A DNA stretch of 64,000 nucleotides from Brachybacterium alimentarium (GTDB lineage: Bacteria > Actinomycetota > Actinomycetes > Actinomycetales > Dermabacteraceae), in contig NZ_NRGS01000002.1 in NCBI RefSeq assembly GCF_002332425.1, positions 62,001 to 126,000 on the forward strand. Reading direction: 5' to 3'. The notes beneath the pieces are model-generated. The model was not told the DNA's origin, ran no database searches, and saw only the letters and a list, made by a program, of their open reading frames with translations. Shown here in pieces: positions 1 to 7,388 of this stretch. Both the position numbers and the translations under genes were made by a program. How positions within the stretch are numbered: the first letter of the stretch is position 1; every line of letters begins with the position of its first letter.

Positions 1-293
1 GACCCTCCGAAGATGTCGATGGCTCCGTCGTTCAGGGTGACGATGGCGCGCTTGGTGTCCTTGCGCTTGCCGGTGCCGAAGCGCGTGCGGCGCGACTTGC
101 CCTGACGGTTGATCGTGTTCACCGAGGCGACCTTGACGTCGAAGACCTTCTCGACGGCGATCTTGATCTCGGTCTTGTTGGCGTCGGCAGCCACCAGGAA
201 GGTGTACTTGCCGTTGTCCATCAGCCCGTAGCTCTTCTCGGAGACGACCGGGGCCAGCAGGACGTCGCGGGGATCCTTGTTCAGCGAGGTCAC
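1..293 (-). CDS. rplW: 50S ribosomal protein uL23 (L23), 3' end cut by window edge
   Basis: About 97 codons are visible, starting with a GTG that overlaps the rplD stop in the four bases GTGA (290-293). The product begins [20 protein letters not shown] and contains the typical L23 run [20 protein letters not shown]. The last visible residues (AIDIFGG) are the usual end of the family, so only a few residues lie outside the window. L23 binds 23S rRNA at the peptide exit tunnel and docks SRP and trigger factor (family knowledge). The four-base overlap implies translational coupling to rplD in the S10 operon. Confidence 0.95.
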
Positions 294-1231
294 TTCGACT
301 CCTCCTCGGCGGCCTCATCGGCCGGGGTGGACTCCTTGACCGCGTTCACGAATCCGGCGGCCTTGGCGGCCTCCTCGGTCGTGAACCAGACCTCGGCCTT
401 GGTGCGGCCGTACCACGGGGAGTCCTCGGTGTGGAACTTCATCGAGCCCTGGTTGCCCTTGATCGTGAAGCCCTCGGGAGCGGAGCCGTCGGCCAGGGGG
501 GCCGCCGAACCTGCACCGTGGGGGGCCTCCTCGACAGCGGCGGCCGGAGCGGCAGCAGCGGACCTCGCCGTGGCGAAGGTCGAGGTGGGGAGCGTCAGGG
601 TCGCCTGGGCCACGAAGTCCTCGAGCGCACCGGAGGTGAAGACCACGTCGTCGGCGAGCATGACGTCGTAGGTGTTCACCTGGTCCGCGTACAGGACGTG
701 GGCGACAGGCAGGTTGCGGGAGCTCAGCGCGCCCAGATCGTCGTCACGACGCACGACGACCAGCACGTGCCGGCGGTCGGAGACGTGGGACAGGGTGATG
801 CGCGCGGCCTTGGTGGAGGCGACATCTCCGGTCAGGAGGGACGACACCACGTGGACGCGGCCGTTGCGGGCCCGATCCGAGAGGGCTCCGCGCAGGGCGG
901 CGGCCTTCATCTTCTTCGGGGTGCGCTGGCTGTAGTCACGCGGGACGGGCCCGTGGACGGTGCCGCCACCGGCGAACTGCGGCGCACGGAGGGAGCCCTG
1001 ACGGGCACGACCGGTGCCCTTCTGCTTCCAGGGCTTCTTGCCGCCGCCACGCACCTCGGCGCGGGTCTTGGCCTTGTGGGTGCCCTGACGAGCGGCCGCC
1101 TGCTGGGCGACGACCACCTGGTGGATCAGGGCCACGTTCGTCTGCACGTCGAAGATCGACGCGGGCAGCTCGACGGTGCCGGACTTCTTACCGGCCGTAT
1201 CGAGCACGTCGACAGTCAGGTTCGCTGCCAT
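290..1231 (-). CDS. rplD: 50S ribosomal protein uL4 (L4) with an extra C-terminal domain
   Basis: Residues 1 to about 207 are a normal L4: an extended loop with [16 protein letters not shown] near residues 65-80 and the conserved globular core. L4 binds 23S rRNA and its loop lines the exit tunnel. The protein then continues well past the usual length of about 205-220 residues. Residues about 208-250 are an Ala/Pro-rich linker, and residues about 254-296 form a compact block with IKGN, a WYGRT motif and [16 protein letters not shown]. This resembles the small domain often found at the C-terminus of secreted nucleases and sometimes called the sunset domain; I made that match by eye. The tail after it is acidic. 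The reading frame is continuous and the downstream rplW start overlaps the stop, so the extension is translated rather than a frameshift artefact. Confidence 0.95.
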
Positions 1232-2755: not shown

Positions 2756-3664
2756 TCACTTGTTCGTGCTCGGACCGATCCCGCCGGAGAGCTGGCGCTG
2801 GAAGATCATGTACACGATCAGCACCGGCAGGATCGTGATCGTCACCGAGGCGAACATCGCCGCCCAGTCCGAACGGTATCCCTGCTGAGCCTGCAGATTC
2901 ACCAGGCCCTGCGCGAGGACGAACTTGTCCGAATCGGTGTTCAGCACGATCGGGAGCAGGAACTGGTTCCACAGTCCCAGGAAGTTGAAGATGGTCACGC
3001 TGGCCATCCCCGGTCCCGACATCGGCAGCATCACCTGGAAGAAGGTGCGGAAGTCCCCCGCACCGTCGATCGCTGCCGCCTCGGCGATCTCCTCCGGCAG
3101 CTGCCGGAAGAAGGCGTACAGGAAGAACACGGTGAACGGGAGCGCGAAGCCCACGTAGGCCATGATCAGTCCGAAGTACGTGCCCCGGATGTGCATCGAC
3201 TCCATGATGAAGAACAGCGGCACCACGGCGAGGAACAGCGGGAACGTGAGGCCCGCGATGAGGGCGTAATAGATGATCCTGCGACCCGGGAAGGTGTACC
3301 GGGACAGGACATAGGCGCACATCGCCCCCAGCAGCATCACCAGGATCAATGCACAGCCGACGACGAGCACGGTGTTGCCGAAGAAGCGGCCGATGCCGGC
3401 CTGGCTCCACGCCCGCACGAAGTTGTCGAAGTTCCATTCCTCGGGCAGCGCGAACGGCGAGGACAGGATCCCCTTCGTCGACTTGAACGAGCTGAAGACG
3501 GTCCAGACCAGCGGCAGGATCACCAGCAGCGACCAGATGCCCAGGATGATCTGGGCGACGACCGTGAAGATCCGGTCGCCTGCAGGGCCGCGGTTGCGAC
3601 GCTGCTGCGCCGGCGGCCGGGGCTGCTCGGTGCCGGCCGGCGCGGTGGTGTGCGAGACGCTCAT
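2756..3664 (-). CDS. ngcG: ABC sugar permease, NgcG-like (MalG-type inner-membrane subunit)
   Basis: This 302-residue permease has about six hydrophobic helices and the EAA loop (EIAEAAAIDGAG, residues about 192-204) that contacts the ATPase, close to the C-terminus as in MalG-type permeases. The start ATG overlaps the upstream permease stop in ATGA (3661-3664). With its partners it would import an amino sugar or chito-oligosaccharide. The assignment to NgcG rests mainly on the strong resemblance of the adjacent binding protein to NgcE; the permease alone only supports a carbohydrate ABC importer (CUT1). No ATPase gene is present, so the pump probably uses a shared MsiK-type ATPase encoded elsewhere. 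Confidence 0.8.
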   Translation of the reverse strand: MSVSHTTAPAGTEQPRPPAQQRRNRGPAGDRIFTVVAQIILGIWSLLVILPLVWTVFSSFKSTKGILSSPFALPEEWNFDNFVRAWSQAGIGRFFGNTVLVVGCALILVMLLGAMCAYVLSRYTFPGRRIIYYALIAGLTFPLFLAVVPLFFIMESMHIRGTYFGLIMAYVGFALPFTVFFLYAFFRQLPEEIAEAAAIDGAGDFRTFFQVMLPMSGPGMASVTIFNFLGLWNQFLLPIVLNTDSDKFVLAQGLVNLQAQQGYRSDWAAMFASVTITILPVLIVYMIFQRQLSGGIGPSTNK

Positions 3665-4632
3665 TCGTCCCCCTTCTGCCGGGTCCCGAACAGGACGATC
3701 ACGGCCATCAGCATGGTCACCAGCGCCATCACGACACCCATGGCGGAGGCGAGCCCGAAGCGGGACTCGCTGAACGCGGTCTCGTACAGGTACCGCGAGA
3801 CCACCTCGGTGCTCTTGCCGATGCCGCCGCTGGGCGTCATGACATTGATGTAGACGAACATGTCCAGCGCCATGATCCCCATGTAGACCGCGGCGGTGGA
3901 GACGTTCTCCCGCACCATCGGCAGGATGACCCGCACCGCCAGGCGCAGACGCCCGGCACCGTCGATACGCGCGGCCTCGACGATCTCGGACGGGATGGAC
4001 TTGATCGCCGCGACGAACAGCACCATGTAGAAGCCCACGAGGCTCCAGATGACTGCCGCCATCACCGCCGGCATCGCCAGTCGGCGGTCGCCCAGCCAGG
4101 CGATCGAGACGTCCAGCCCGAGCACGTTCAGCCCACCGTTGAGCAGGCCCCCGTTGGGCGAGTAGATGAACCCGAACAGGATGCCGACGACGACCGCCGG
4201 GATCACGTACGGGAAGAAGCTCACGATGCGGAAGACGGCCGCTCCCGGGATCCCGGAGATCTTCCCCCTGCTGTTCCCGCCCACGGTGACCAGCACCGCG
4301 AGCGCGAACGACAGCGTGATCGTGATCGTGGGCAGCAGGATCATGAGGATCAGGTTGTTCGAGAGCGCCTTGCGGAAGATCGGGTCGTTCGCGAGCGTGA
4401 CGTAGTTGTCCAGCCCGATCCACTGCGGGGCGCGGGCGAGGCCGCGCCAGTCGGTCATCGAGTAGTAGAACGCCTGCAGGAACGGCGACACCACGAAGAC
4501 CACGTAGACCACCAGCGGCAGCCCGAGGAACAAGGCGAAGAACAGCACTCGCGAGGGCGTCAGACGGCGCCGCATCCCCCGGGCCGACGGTGTGGCCGCG
4601 GGGGGTGCGGCGGTGGGGACTGCAGCCATCAT
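3661..4632 (-). CDS. ngcF: ABC sugar permease, NgcF-like (MalF-type inner-membrane subunit)
   Basis: The 323-residue product has about six transmembrane segments beginning near residue 28 and an EAA loop (EIVEAARIDGAG, residues about 216-227). It is the MalF-type partner of the downstream permease. Its start overlaps the binding-protein stop by four bases (ATGA at 4629-4632) and its own stop overlaps ngcG in the same way, so the three genes are translationally coupled. Substrate (N-acetylglucosamine or chitobiose) is inferred from the binding protein. Confidence 0.8.
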   Translation of the reverse strand: MMAAVPTAAPPAATPSARGMRRRLTPSRVLFFALFLGLPLVVYVVFVVSPFLQAFYYSMTDWRGLARAPQWIGLDNYVTLANDPIFRKALSNNLILMILLPTITITLSFALAVLVTVGGNSRGKISGIPGAAVFRIVSFFPYVIPAVVVGILFGFIYSPNGGLLNGGLNVLGLDVSIAWLGDRRLAMPAVMAAVIWSLVGFYMVLFVAAIKSIPSEIVEAARIDGAGRLRLAVRVILPMVRENVSTAAVYMGIMALDMFVYINVMTPSGGIGKSTEVVSRYLYETAFSESRFGLASAMGVVMALVTMLMAVIVLFGTRQKGDE

Positions 4633-6083
4633 TCGACGTCGAACTTCTCGATGCCGTCGTCCTCCCGGACCTTGTCGATGACCTCCTGGGACTTCTCGAG
4701 CGCCTGCTCGGCGGTCAGGTCACCGTTGAGGAACTCGGCCCACAGCGGCTTGAAGTCGTCTCCGAGCCCGTACCAGTCGGTGAAGTTGAAGTTGAAGACG
4801 TCATCGCCCGCAGCCTCGGTCATCGCGTTGACGGAGGCGAGCGCGGTGGAGCCGAAGGCATCCTCGGGGATGGTGTCCTGCACGATCGTCATCGACGAGG
4901 TGAGCTCGGAGAAGTTCTGGCACATCTCCTTGCTGAGCATGACGCGCAGGAACTCGAGGCCACCGGCGCCGTTGGCCGCCTTCGCCGGCACCATGAAGGG
5001 TTCTCCGGCGGCGCCGTGCATCGCCGCCTCACCCATCGCTGCGGACTCGCTGAGCATGGGCGTCGCCGCGCCGGTCATCTCGTAGTCGTCGGGCGTGGTG
5101 TCGCGCTGCTCGTTCTCGATCCAGGATCCGGAGGGGTACATGACGGCCTTGCCCGTCACCCATTCGGTCTGCGCCTCGGTGTGCTTGATGCCGGCGCCGC
5201 CGGAGAGGAAGTAGCCGGCGGAGACGGCATCCTCGATCGCGGTGAACGCCGCGACCACGGCGTCCTGCGAATAGGCGTCGTCATCGAGCGAGTCCAGCTT
5301 CTTGGCCAGGTCCGGCCCGGCCTCCTTGATCGCCATCGAGATCGCGAGTTCGTGGTAGTAGTCCGCCGCGTTCTGGCCGCCCCAGGCGAACAGCGCGAGA
5401 TCCTCGCCCTTCGCCGCCTCGCCGATGGTCATGACGTCGTCCCAGGTCTTGGGCGTTTCCCAGCCCTTGTCCTCGAACTGCTTCGCCGAGTACCACAGGG
5501 CGAAGACGGTGTACATGTAGTTCAGGGCGAAGAGCTTGCCCGAATAGGTCCCCGGCGAGAGGACCCCCGGCAGGAGCGTGTCTCCGATCGTGCCGTCGCC
5601 GTCCAGGGAGGGCGCGTCGATCAGGCTGTCGAGCTCTGCAAGGCTGCCCTCGGAGATCAGGGCCGACGCGTTCATCGACTGGGCGCCGGAGTTGTCGAAG
5701 AGATCCGGCGGGTTGCCGCCGATGAAGCGGGGCTGGAGGTCCGACTGGATGTTGACCGTCGAGCTGACCTTCGCCTCGGAGTCGGGGTGCAGCTCCTGAT
5801 ACTTCTCGCCGGAGTCCTTGGCGTACTGATCTCCATAGCCACCATTGAAGATGACGACATCGACCGGCTCGTCCTCGGCCATGCCGAACGGGTTGTCGTC
5901 GCTGACCTCGCCGCCGCCTTCGGGCGCGCCGCCCGCATCGGACTCGTCGTCGTCCCCGCCTCCGCCGGCGGCGCAGGCGCTCAGAGCGACGGCGCCGGTG
6001 CCTGCTGAGGCGAGCGCCAGGAAATTGCGTCGAGAGGCGCCGAGCCTGTCGAGCGGGGTCATGTCCTCAGGGGAAGTGCCCAT
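4629..6083 (-). CDS. ngcE: Lipoprotein sugar-binding protein, NgcE-like (GlcNAc/diacetylchitobiose)
   Basis: The 484-residue product starts with a Tat-type leader (SRRNFLAL, Arg18-Arg19) ending in lipobox LSAC with Cys37, so it should be a membrane-anchored extracellular binding protein. The mature part matches my recollection of Streptomyces NgcE in long runs such as VVIFNGGYGDQYAK, RFIGGNPPDLFDNSGA and the stretch GEPFMVPAKAANGAGG. NgcE delivers N-acetylglucosamine and N,N'-diacetylchitobiose to its permeases. The ATG at 6083 is preceded by AGAGGA. It heads the operon ngcE-ngcF-ngcG, with two palindromic operators upstream. Confidence 0.85.
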   Translation of the reverse strand: MGTSPEDMTPLDRLGASRRNFLALASAGTGAVALSACAAGGGGDDDESDAGGAPEGGGEVSDDNPFGMAEDEPVDVVIFNGGYGDQYAKDSGEKYQELHPDSEAKVSSTVNIQSDLQPRFIGGNPPDLFDNSGAQSMNASALISEGSLAELDSLIDAPSLDGDGTIGDTLLPGVLSPGTYSGKLFALNYMYTVFALWYSAKQFEDKGWETPKTWDDVMTIGEAAKGEDLALFAWGGQNAADYYHELAISMAIKEAGPDLAKKLDSLDDDAYSQDAVVAAFTAIEDAVSAGYFLSGGAGIKHTEAQTEWVTGKAVMYPSGSWIENEQRDTTPDDYEMTGAATPMLSESAAMGEAAMHGAAGEPFMVPAKAANGAGGLEFLRVMLSKEMCQNFSELTSSMTIVQDTIPEDAFGSTALASVNAMTEAAGDDVFNFNFTDWYGLGDDFKPLWAEFLNGDLTAEQALEKSQEVIDKVREDDGIEKFDVE

Positions 6084-6148
6084 GATCGGGTCCTCTTTCG
6101 TCTTCGTCGTCGAAAAGGTCGCTCGTGCACCACGAAGCTGCACAGCTG

Positions 6149-6166
6149 CTCGTCCCACGGGACGAG
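6149..6166. promoter_or_regulatory. Perfect 8-bp-arm palindrome just downstream of the ngcE promoter
   Basis: CTCGTCCC and GGGACGAG flank a two-base centre. On the minus strand it falls a few bases after the predicted transcription start (box TAGCAT at 6183-6178), where a bound repressor would block the polymerase. I do not recognise the cognate regulator. Confidence 0.5.
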
Positions 6167-6177
6167 TGGTGCTCGAC

Positions 6178-6199
6178 ATGCTACGTGGTCCAGCCCACT
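6178..6199 (-). promoter_or_regulatory. ngcE promoter -10 box with an abutting DasR-type (dre-like) operator
   Basis: The minus strand reads AGTGGGCTGGACCACG (6199-6184) directly followed by TAGCAT (6183-6178). The 16-mer agrees with the DasR responsive element consensus (A[C/G]TGGTCTAGACCA[G/C]T) at 13 of 16 positions by my count. DasR is the GntR/HutC-type amino-sugar repressor released by GlcN-6-P. A site in the -35/-10 spacer of a GlcNAc transporter is what that system predicts. No dasR gene lies in the window. Confidence 0.6.
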
Positions 6200-6386
6200 T
6201 CCGGTCGGAGGTACGTCGAAGGTGAACACGTGTCATCGAACTGTGATGTCGCTGCGCGTGACAGGCGCGAACCGCTCCCCCGGGCGGCACCAGTGCGCCA
6301 CCCGGGCGGCGCCATCGGCGGCGATCTCGCCAGCTGCTCACACGGGGCGTCCTGCGCACATCCAGCCCGCTCCGGGTCTGCTCGAT

Positions 6387-6398
6387 TACGGTAGCCCC
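6387..6398 (+). promoter_or_regulatory. -10 box for leaderless transcription of the 6399 gene
   Basis: TACGGT (6387-6392) is followed by six bases and then the ATG at 6399. There is no Shine-Dalgarno sequence, so transcription probably starts at the A of the start codon. Confidence 0.5.
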
Positions 6399-7388
6399 AT
6401 GACACAGCCACCACGATCCGCCTCGCCCCTGACCGCGCGACTGTACGACCTGGAGTATCCGCGCTCCCTCGGGGTCTACAGCACGTATCAGGAGGTCCAG
6501 GCCGTGGTGGATACGCTCGCCGACAACCACTTCCCGGTCCAGAGCACTCTCATCGTCGGCACCGACCTCAAGCTGATGGAGCGGGTCACCGGCCGGAAGA
6601 CCTGGGGGCGGGTGATCGGCCAGGGCGTGCTGTCGGGCCTGTGGATGGGCCTGTTCCTCGGGCTGCTGCTCATGTTCATCACGCCCAGCAACGTGCTCGT
6701 GGTGCTCACCAGCGTGCTGCTGGGCATCGTCTTCTTCACCGTGTGGTCGGTCATCGGGTACGCGATGTCCGGCGGCAAGCGGGACTTCACCTCGATGGTC
6801 GCGACGATCCCGATGCAGTACGAGCTCCTCGTGGAGCACAAGCATGCTGATCAGGCGCGCCGCCTGCTCGCGGAGTCGGGGGCGTCACCCGCCCCGGCAC
6901 CGGTCTCCCCTGCCACCCCGCTGCCGGGCCACAGCGGCCCTGCCGGTCAGTTCGGCGCGAAGCAGCAGGGTTCAGGCCCCTTCGGCGCGAGCCCGCAGGG
7001 ATCGGGATCGTTCGGCGCCAGCCAGCAGGGAGGCCGCCCGTCCTCCGGTGCCGATCACCCGGCCGCACCGCGGCAGAACGCGCCGCAGCAGCCGGGTGGG
7101 GGCCAGCCGGGTTCGCGATCCGCCCCGTCGGCACCGGCTGCGCCGGGAGCAGAGACTCCGACGGGCCGCCCGCTCTACGGCCAACCGGCTCCGAGTGCTC
7201 CGTCGGCCCCGACCTCTGAGACCCCGGGGCGACCCTCGCGTCCCAGCTTCGGACAGCCGGCCGGCACTCCCCTGCACGAAGACTCTCGGCCTCACTCCTC
7301 CGATCCCGAGGTGGATCCCGCCGCTGAGCCCCGCTTCGGCGAGGATCGCCCCGAGGATCCTCAGGACTACTACCACCGAGGTCGCTGA
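6399..7388 (+). CDS. Two-helix membrane protein, general-stress (17M/YflT-like) type, with Pro/Gly-rich tail
   Basis: The N-terminal region (residues about 20-60) reads YPRSLGVYSTYQEVQAVVDTL followed by FPVQSTLIVGTDLKL, which resembles the YflT/general stress protein 17M domain. Two hydrophobic helices follow (about 75-93 and 97-122), joined by a short loop with TPSN. Residues from about 160 to 329 are a low-complexity tail rich in Pro, Gly, Ser and Gln with repeats of FGASPQGSG type, presumably disordered and cytoplasmic. The function is unknown. It is transcribed alone, divergent from ngcE, probably as a leaderless message, and ends in a strong hairpin. The family match is by eye. Confidence 0.75.
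   Translation: MTQPPRSASPLTARLYDLEYPRSLGVYSTYQEVQAVVDTLADNHFPVQSTLIVGTDLKLMERVTGRKTWGRVIGQGVLSGLWMGLFLGLLLMFITPSNVLVVLTSVLLGIVFFTVWSVIGYAMSGGKRDFTSMVATIPMQYELLVEHKHADQARRLLAESGASPAPAPVSPATPLPGHSGPAGQFGAKQQGSGPFGASPQGSGSFGASQQGGRPSSGADHPAAPRQNAPQQPGGGQPGSRSAPSAPAAPGAETPTGRPLYGQPAPSAPSAPTSETPGRPSRPSFGQPAGTPLHEDSRPHSSDPEVDPAAEPRFGEDRPEDPQDYYHRGR

Follow-up and report, generated by a model that had tools for sequence, protein, structure and literature searches.

The large-subunit protein uL4 of Brachybacterium alimentarium continues well past the end of its conserved fold, which raises the question of what the additional residues are, how they came to be there and what they might do for a ribosome. 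We examined this question from a 64,000-nucleotide stretch of DNA, here called the window, which holds rplD and reaches its edge within the neighboring rplW (Table 1). The sequence-only reading of the window had proposed that the L4 fold ends near residue 207 and that one continuous frame then runs through an Ala/Pro linker into a compact block resembling the 'sunset' domain. Profile searches bear out this anatomy. The Pfam L4 match stops at residue 206, and the HMM search that the reading had called for places the curated NCBIfam model NF051437 ('sunset') on residues 257-296 with 73.1 bits against a cut-off of 27, so that the name given to the block was right. The positions first assigned to the extra part, 290-480, cover the sunset domain, whereas the linker, which begins at 613, falls outside them. 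As a whole, the protein scores 444.6 bits on the NCBIfam model NF051449 (cut-off 385; profile positions 1-285 of 285), and the extra block is therefore no chance match. The lead-in just ahead of the domain is common to many other sunset carriers, and the translation of residues 207-313 is free of cysteine. Throughout the 67 contigs of this genome, the rplD tail is the single sunset match at E ≤ 0.001.

Table 1. Positions in the window of rplD, its parts and the adjoining rplW.
Feature	Residues	Position	Strand	Basis
rplD, uL4 with sunset tail, 313 aa, ATG start		290-1231	minus	ORF and profile matches
uL4 domain	20-206	614-1174	minus	PF00573 (Pfam), 211.8 bits, cut-off 25.8
Linker	207-256	464-613	minus	
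Linker part, Ala/Pro-rich	207-235	within 464-613	minus
Linker part, lead-in GxGS...DGSAPEGF	236-256	within 464-613	minus
Sunset domain	257-296	344-463 (contig C2:62344-62463)	minus	NF051437 (NCBIfam)
Acidic C-terminal end, last letters EEESK	297-313	293-343	minus
AGGAGG within terminal Glu codons, 7 bases ahead of rplW GTG		301-306	minus	by eye
rplW (uL23), reaches window edge		3-293	minus	ORF list

An extension of this kind might never be made, arising instead from faulty assembly, a frameshift or an annotation carried past the end of L4. The frame is open without a stop and is kept in other species, and the rplW start overlaps the end of the tailed rplD frame, with the stop TGA at 292-290 and the start GTG at 293-291 forming the GTGA that had been read from the sequence at the outset. 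A structural comparison is offered by Cutibacterium acnes, whose uL4 (chain e of PDB 8crx, with five more entries) has a tail homologous to that of the window (E 7.7e-19) and was the sole match up to E 10 in a PDB sequence search with the window tail. In the part of the C. acnes 70S paper that treats uL4 (PMC10085706), the protein is described as having a C-terminal extension that is exposed to solvent and exceeds that of E. coli by 100 residues, for which density is missing and which is likely disordered; the domain name is absent from that account. The missing density is the observation that would favor an artefact, but it is explained by flexibility, and we regard an extension that is not made as very improbable.

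The end of the gene also indicates where the module is inserted. The AGGAGG in the terminal Glu codons is probably the ribosome-binding site of rplW. Five tail-less Brachybacterium uL4 proteins (L026, L028-L031) end shortly after a conserved LPTSxFA, with the final letters EEESK in three, EESK in one and EEKSK in one; the sixth C-terminus read, L027 of genome G014, has the tail. Since the endings of the tail-less proteins and of the window protein are alike, of the EEESK type, the sunset module sits upstream of the last codons, and its gain or loss would appear to spare those codons together with the probable rplW ribosome-binding site. Upstream of the ribosomal genes, at 2756-6845 on the minus strand, ORF translations read by eye resemble ABC sugar transporter genes, namely permeases and a substrate-binding protein.

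The uL4-sunset architecture itself already has an entry in NCBIfam. This model, NF051449, "50S ribosomal protein L4, sunset domain variant", has the same architecture as the window uL4 over the full model, and its entry text offers a name without a function. The same tail module is listed on carriers other than uL4 in NF051448, NF051450 and NF051451 (L17, L20 and S2 sunset variants) and in NF051433 (ArfC sunset variant). Sunset proteins of the bS16 and NuoE types matched listed NCBIfam variants only below cut-off and brought up none specific to their own carrier, while those of the uL22, NusA and NuoJ types were scanned against Pfam only. Coverage matters in using NF051449, since 6 of the 18 genomes that exceed 385 bits in our sample of 198 from the order do so with matches that stop at profile positions 212-242, before the sunset part. 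Genome G216 reaches 388.5 bits with a match to profile positions 1-234. In the literature, searches on uL4 extensions led to PMC10085706 and PMC13392368, among other papers. The phrase "sunset domain" occurred solely in an unrelated context (medical librarians), and our searches returned no paper on L17 extensions in Actinobacteria, on Ada_Zn_binding with nuclease or on L4 extensions with Bifidobacterium. Movement of the module among ribosomal proteins, its extra carriers and its relation to the Ada domain, described below, were not found in print by these searches on uL4/L17 extensions and Ada_Zn_binding.

Carriers of the module are many. Across Actinomycetota they comprise uL4, bL17, bL20, uL22, uS2, bS16, NusA, NuoE, NuoJ and membrane-anchored proteins, so that among various species at least six ribosomal proteins, from both subunits, bear it. 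A sunset match is present in 53 of the 198 order genomes: on uL4 in 12, where the match runs to the end of the NF051449 model, on bL17 in 27, including one assigned by N-terminal sequence alone (L151), on bL20 in 2 (L154, L173) and on bS16 in 2 (L105, L144). At least one ribosomal carrier occurs in 37 of the 198, and 5 of these 37 have more than one. The phylum sample yielded matches in 29 of 296 genomes, 25 of them above cut-off, and in the family of G433 the cut-off was exceeded in 52 of 100 genomes (49 loci read, two being repeats). Additional carriers include uL22 (L115, L116), NusA (L185), uS2 in Nocardioides and others (five recognized by Pfam, the rest by similarity) and membrane-anchored proteins recognized by hydropathy, with ArfC and DUF5324 similarity. 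Several carriers may coexist, as in G178, with sunset on uL4, bL17 and bS16, and in G521, with sunset on uL4, bS16 and a bL17 that has two modules.

Other arrangements were seen among these loci. Complex I subunits with a C-terminal sunset domain are NuoJ at L360:824-2008 (+) and L367:831-2117 (+) and NuoE at L102:1471-2748 (-). Tandem, near-identical modules in one bL17 (L335:1492-2409 (-), the same gene as L359:1930-2847 (-)) are probably the result of a recent duplication within the gene, and two adjoining, apparently membrane-anchored proteins at L358:2446-3684 (+) and L358:1095-1733 (+) have three and one sunset modules, respectively. We considered a cysteine pair as a strict marker of secreted copies and rejected it, as the C-terminal sunset domains of L188, which also has LGFP repeats, and of L119 contain no cysteine.

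Within Brachybacterium, the position of the module varies from genome to genome. We located rplD in 36 of 38 genomes, with a sunset match inside it in 27 and none in 9. For rplQ (bL17), 8 genomes lie above the L17-sunset cut-off; in a ninth, G032, masked bases separate the L17 part from a module that we infer to belong to rplQ, and the gene is missing or fragmentary in G026, G027, G029 and G030. Among the 33 genomes for which both genes could be scored, counting G032 rplQ on that basis, 4 have both tails, 20 the uL4 tail only, 5 the bL17 tail only and 4 neither. These last (G006, G011, G017 and G033) are all 99% complete, and 4 of the 33 near-complete genomes have no sunset match anywhere. A strict rule of one ribosomal copy per genome is not supported: in Brachybacterium its Fisher p is 0.073, uncorrected for relatedness, and across the order uL4 and bL17 tails, if anything, go together, both being present in 4 of 198 genomes (p 0.063, with an odds ratio of 3.5).

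A genus tree was built from the L3, L4-core and L23 DNA of 36 genomes, with two Dermabacter added as outgroup; good support was obtained for 19 of its 35 inner branches. It requires the state to have changed three or more times in rplD and four or more times in rplQ, a count that is blind to gain versus loss. Both Dermabacter outgroup rows carry the uL4 tail, however, which makes loss the simpler reading for the tail-less Brachybacterium rplD genes. Such losses argue that the tail is dispensable over evolutionary time, as do the near-complete Brachybacterium genomes without sunset and the small number of matching genomes in the phylum sample.

To follow the module between carriers, we used a tree of 135 distinct cysteine-free modules (72 columns; 37 of 132 inner branches well supported, bootstrap unsettled). 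Of 163 distinct modules, 28 were excluded before tree counting (21 secreted, 7 unassigned), and divergent modules in L113-L196, added by a later HMM search, are absent from this tree. The best tree has 25 carrier changes, compared with a mean of ~65 for shuffled labels, and its well-supported branches alone require 5 changes for uL4 and 6 for bL17. AU tests, for which the groups were given by carrier or genus but which were run with the tree already in view, reject a single clade of uL4 modules (p 0.0025), of bL17 modules (p 2e-5) and of all Brachybacterium modules (p 0.019). One clade (100/98) unites the bL17 modules of Brachybacterium with those of Propionibacteriaceae and their relatives and leaves the Brachybacterium uL4 modules outside; its members from other genera are mostly on uL4, and also on bL17, membrane proteins and one uS2. 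The Brachybacterium bL17 tail L047 shows 85-87% identity to the modules that C. avidum, C. porci and Acidipropionibacterium carry on uL4; L047 itself served as the query by which these relatives were retrieved (the best 80 of 513 matches), and the set is biased to that type. The same bL17 tail is 62% identical to the window uL4 tail, which shares 57% identity with the C. avidum uL4 tail.

Copies within single genomes range from close to distant. The bS16 and bL17 modules of G165 are 89% identical and are sisters on the tree (100/82), and uL4 and bL17 modules of the same genome share 49-69% identity in G009, G028, G036, G152 and G178. Transfer of a whole rplQ gene as the source of the Cutibacterium-like tail is not supported: the nearest tails are on uL4, and the Brachybacterium rplQ cores group together (74/85, not starred), so that the tail alone need have moved. 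On the evidence of these comparisons, copies of the module have passed from one ribosomal gene to another, in some cases inside a single genome and in at least one case between orders. A phage origin was also considered and rejected, a tblastn search with one bL17 tail giving no match in 50,697 phage records. Two plasmid records match the bL17 tail, one on rplQ and the other without annotation, and PHROGs gave three weak matches for the last 100 amino acids (E 0.064 to 0.39) and none for the domain alone.

A module with this history might have no dedicated ribosomal function, being instead a near-neutral passenger that recombination carries from the 3′ end of one highly expressed gene to that of another and that persists since the ribosome exterior tolerates tails. 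Its patchy gain and loss on the genus tree, the Brachybacterium genomes without any match, the tandem duplication in one bL17 and the lack of an evident common pathway among the NuoE, NuoJ and NusA carriers all favor this explanation, and long tails on highly expressed genes could indeed be tolerated passengers. Divergence within the gene points the other way. We compared 21 tailed Brachybacterium rplD genes (23 of the 27 were tried, and 2 were dropped because the stop codon lay outside the coordinates), for which the mean pairwise amino acid difference comes to 0.072 for the core and 0.104 for the sunset domain, as against 0.307 for the Ala/Pro linker and 0.178 for the lead-in. The domain thus changes about three times more slowly than the linker, and in 18 tailed uL4 proteins it keeps invariant K, G, N, S, H, Y, T, E, W and F positions, unlike a long-term passenger. 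The initial set of modules came from regular expressions that required some of the motif residues, which partly builds conservation into that set, and the argument is drawn from the 18 tailed uL4 proteins and the genus comparison instead. On this balance, a passenger without function is a plausible yet unlikely account.

The same 21 genes gave pN/pS values of 0.19 for the core, 0.47 for the Ala/Pro linker, 0.34 for the lead-in and 0.50 for the sunset domain. The last value is high because synonymous divergence in the sunset block is unusually low: fourfold sites in Brachybacterium rplD differ by 0.135 in the domain, compared with an observed 0.228 and, from its codon boxes, an expected 0.241 for the core, and linker fourfold divergence exceeds that of the core. 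With pN/pS inflated in this way by low synonymous change, the case for selection rests on the low amino acid divergence. Recent module exchange or a constraint on the DNA is a possible source of the low synonymous divergence in the sunset codons.

The best evidence on the relationships of the domain is a bridging sequence, L135, which ties it to the Ada zinc-binding domain: the same residues score 49.5 bits on PF02805 (cut-off 23) and 31.0 bits on NF051437 (cut-off 27). PF02805 is also found at the C-terminus of SNase-type nucleases, and two such nucleases, L140 and L138, have an Ada-type C-terminus with sub-threshold sunset scores of 20.0 and 19.3. Similarly, L182 has a C-terminal sunset domain and sub-threshold similarity to thermonucleases. 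When 84 aligned modules were compared by hhalign with Ada domains of the same order (12 of 16 loci, those found by pattern), the probability was 22% and the score 21.07. This score is above those of all 200 column shuffles, the highest of which reached 18.54, column shuffling being an easy null. AlphaFold2 models of the tail have block-mean pLDDT values of 82-89 over most of the domain. N-Ada 1u8b ranked first in Foldseek for both tail models, weakly (E 4.9 and 4.1), and VIA comparison with 1u8b gave Z of 3.6 and 4.0 and rmsd of 3.5 and 3.6 over 50 and 52 residues (14 and 16 chains compared). These sequence comparisons relate the sunset domain to the Ada-type zinc-binding domain, with its cysteines lost. 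PF02805 itself had no match in the window protein or its last 100 amino acids up to E 10. Whereas the zinc ligands of the Ada domain are cysteines, the window tail has none and lies in an acidic setting; given the lack of cysteine, Ada-type zinc binding by this tail is unlikely.

Kinship with PF02805, and the presence of related domains at the C-terminus of SNase-type nucleases, would suit a domain that binds nucleic acid in the manner of the N-terminal Ada domain and provides the ribosome with an extra RNA or DNA contact. The ribosomal modules, though, are neutral to acidic and sit on acidic linkers, and the zinc cysteines are gone. Mean net core charge is -0.7 for uL4, -3.3 for bL17 and -0.7 for uS2 modules versus +2.4 for the secreted cysteine type, with repeated loci counted repeatedly. 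Modules of this charge speak against simple RNA binding, and we consider a nucleic acid contact quite improbable.

Sunset domains on membrane-anchored proteins and on NuoE/NuoJ in some genomes suggest another role, in which the module would pair with membrane proteins or complex I subunits that bear the domain as well and would so hold ribosomes at the membrane. Among the 32 Brachybacterium genomes with a match, 31, the window's included, have sunset matches confined to rplD or rplQ. Pairing with a sunset protein of some other kind can therefore not be general, and we consider a membrane tie of this sort improbable. The exception, G019, has such an additional protein, with a sunset domain of the type that contains cysteine, at C1:128697-128831 (L167).

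The explanation we prefer, with confidence that stands about level with our doubt, is that the sunset tail is a portable and dispensable docking or address tag that holds the whole ribosome near a putative partner. The C-termini of the ribosomal carrier proteins generally face the solvent, as is reported for uL4 of C. acnes. The tail consists of a flexible Ala/Pro/acidic arm and a small, cysteine-free domain related to the Ada-type domain. In Brachybacterium, this domain would be folded and displayed outside the ribosome, where it may act as a docking or address tag that keeps the whole ribosome close to that partner. Because lineages place the module on different ribosomal proteins, the tag would not be tied to one ribosomal site, and with its site of attachment irrelevant it would most likely serve to dock or place the entire ribosome. 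The observation from which this work started is confirmed, and its interpretation, that a domain on the solvent side could recruit a factor, is partly supported. More tentatively, Actinobacteria may possess a movable, zinc-free Ada-relative tag that hops among ribosomal proteins, NusA and complex I across orders, its carrier hardly mattering because the tag places the whole complex; we find this wider proposal possible and, on the whole, doubtful.

Ribosomal proteins are among the most conserved parts of the cell, yet at least six of them bear the sunset domain, which has been moved or lost repeatedly. If the tail tethers ribosomes, it would give a means of studying the places in which bacterial ribosomes operate and the partners they keep. 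If it is without effect, it would show how freely the exterior of the ribosome accepts new domains.
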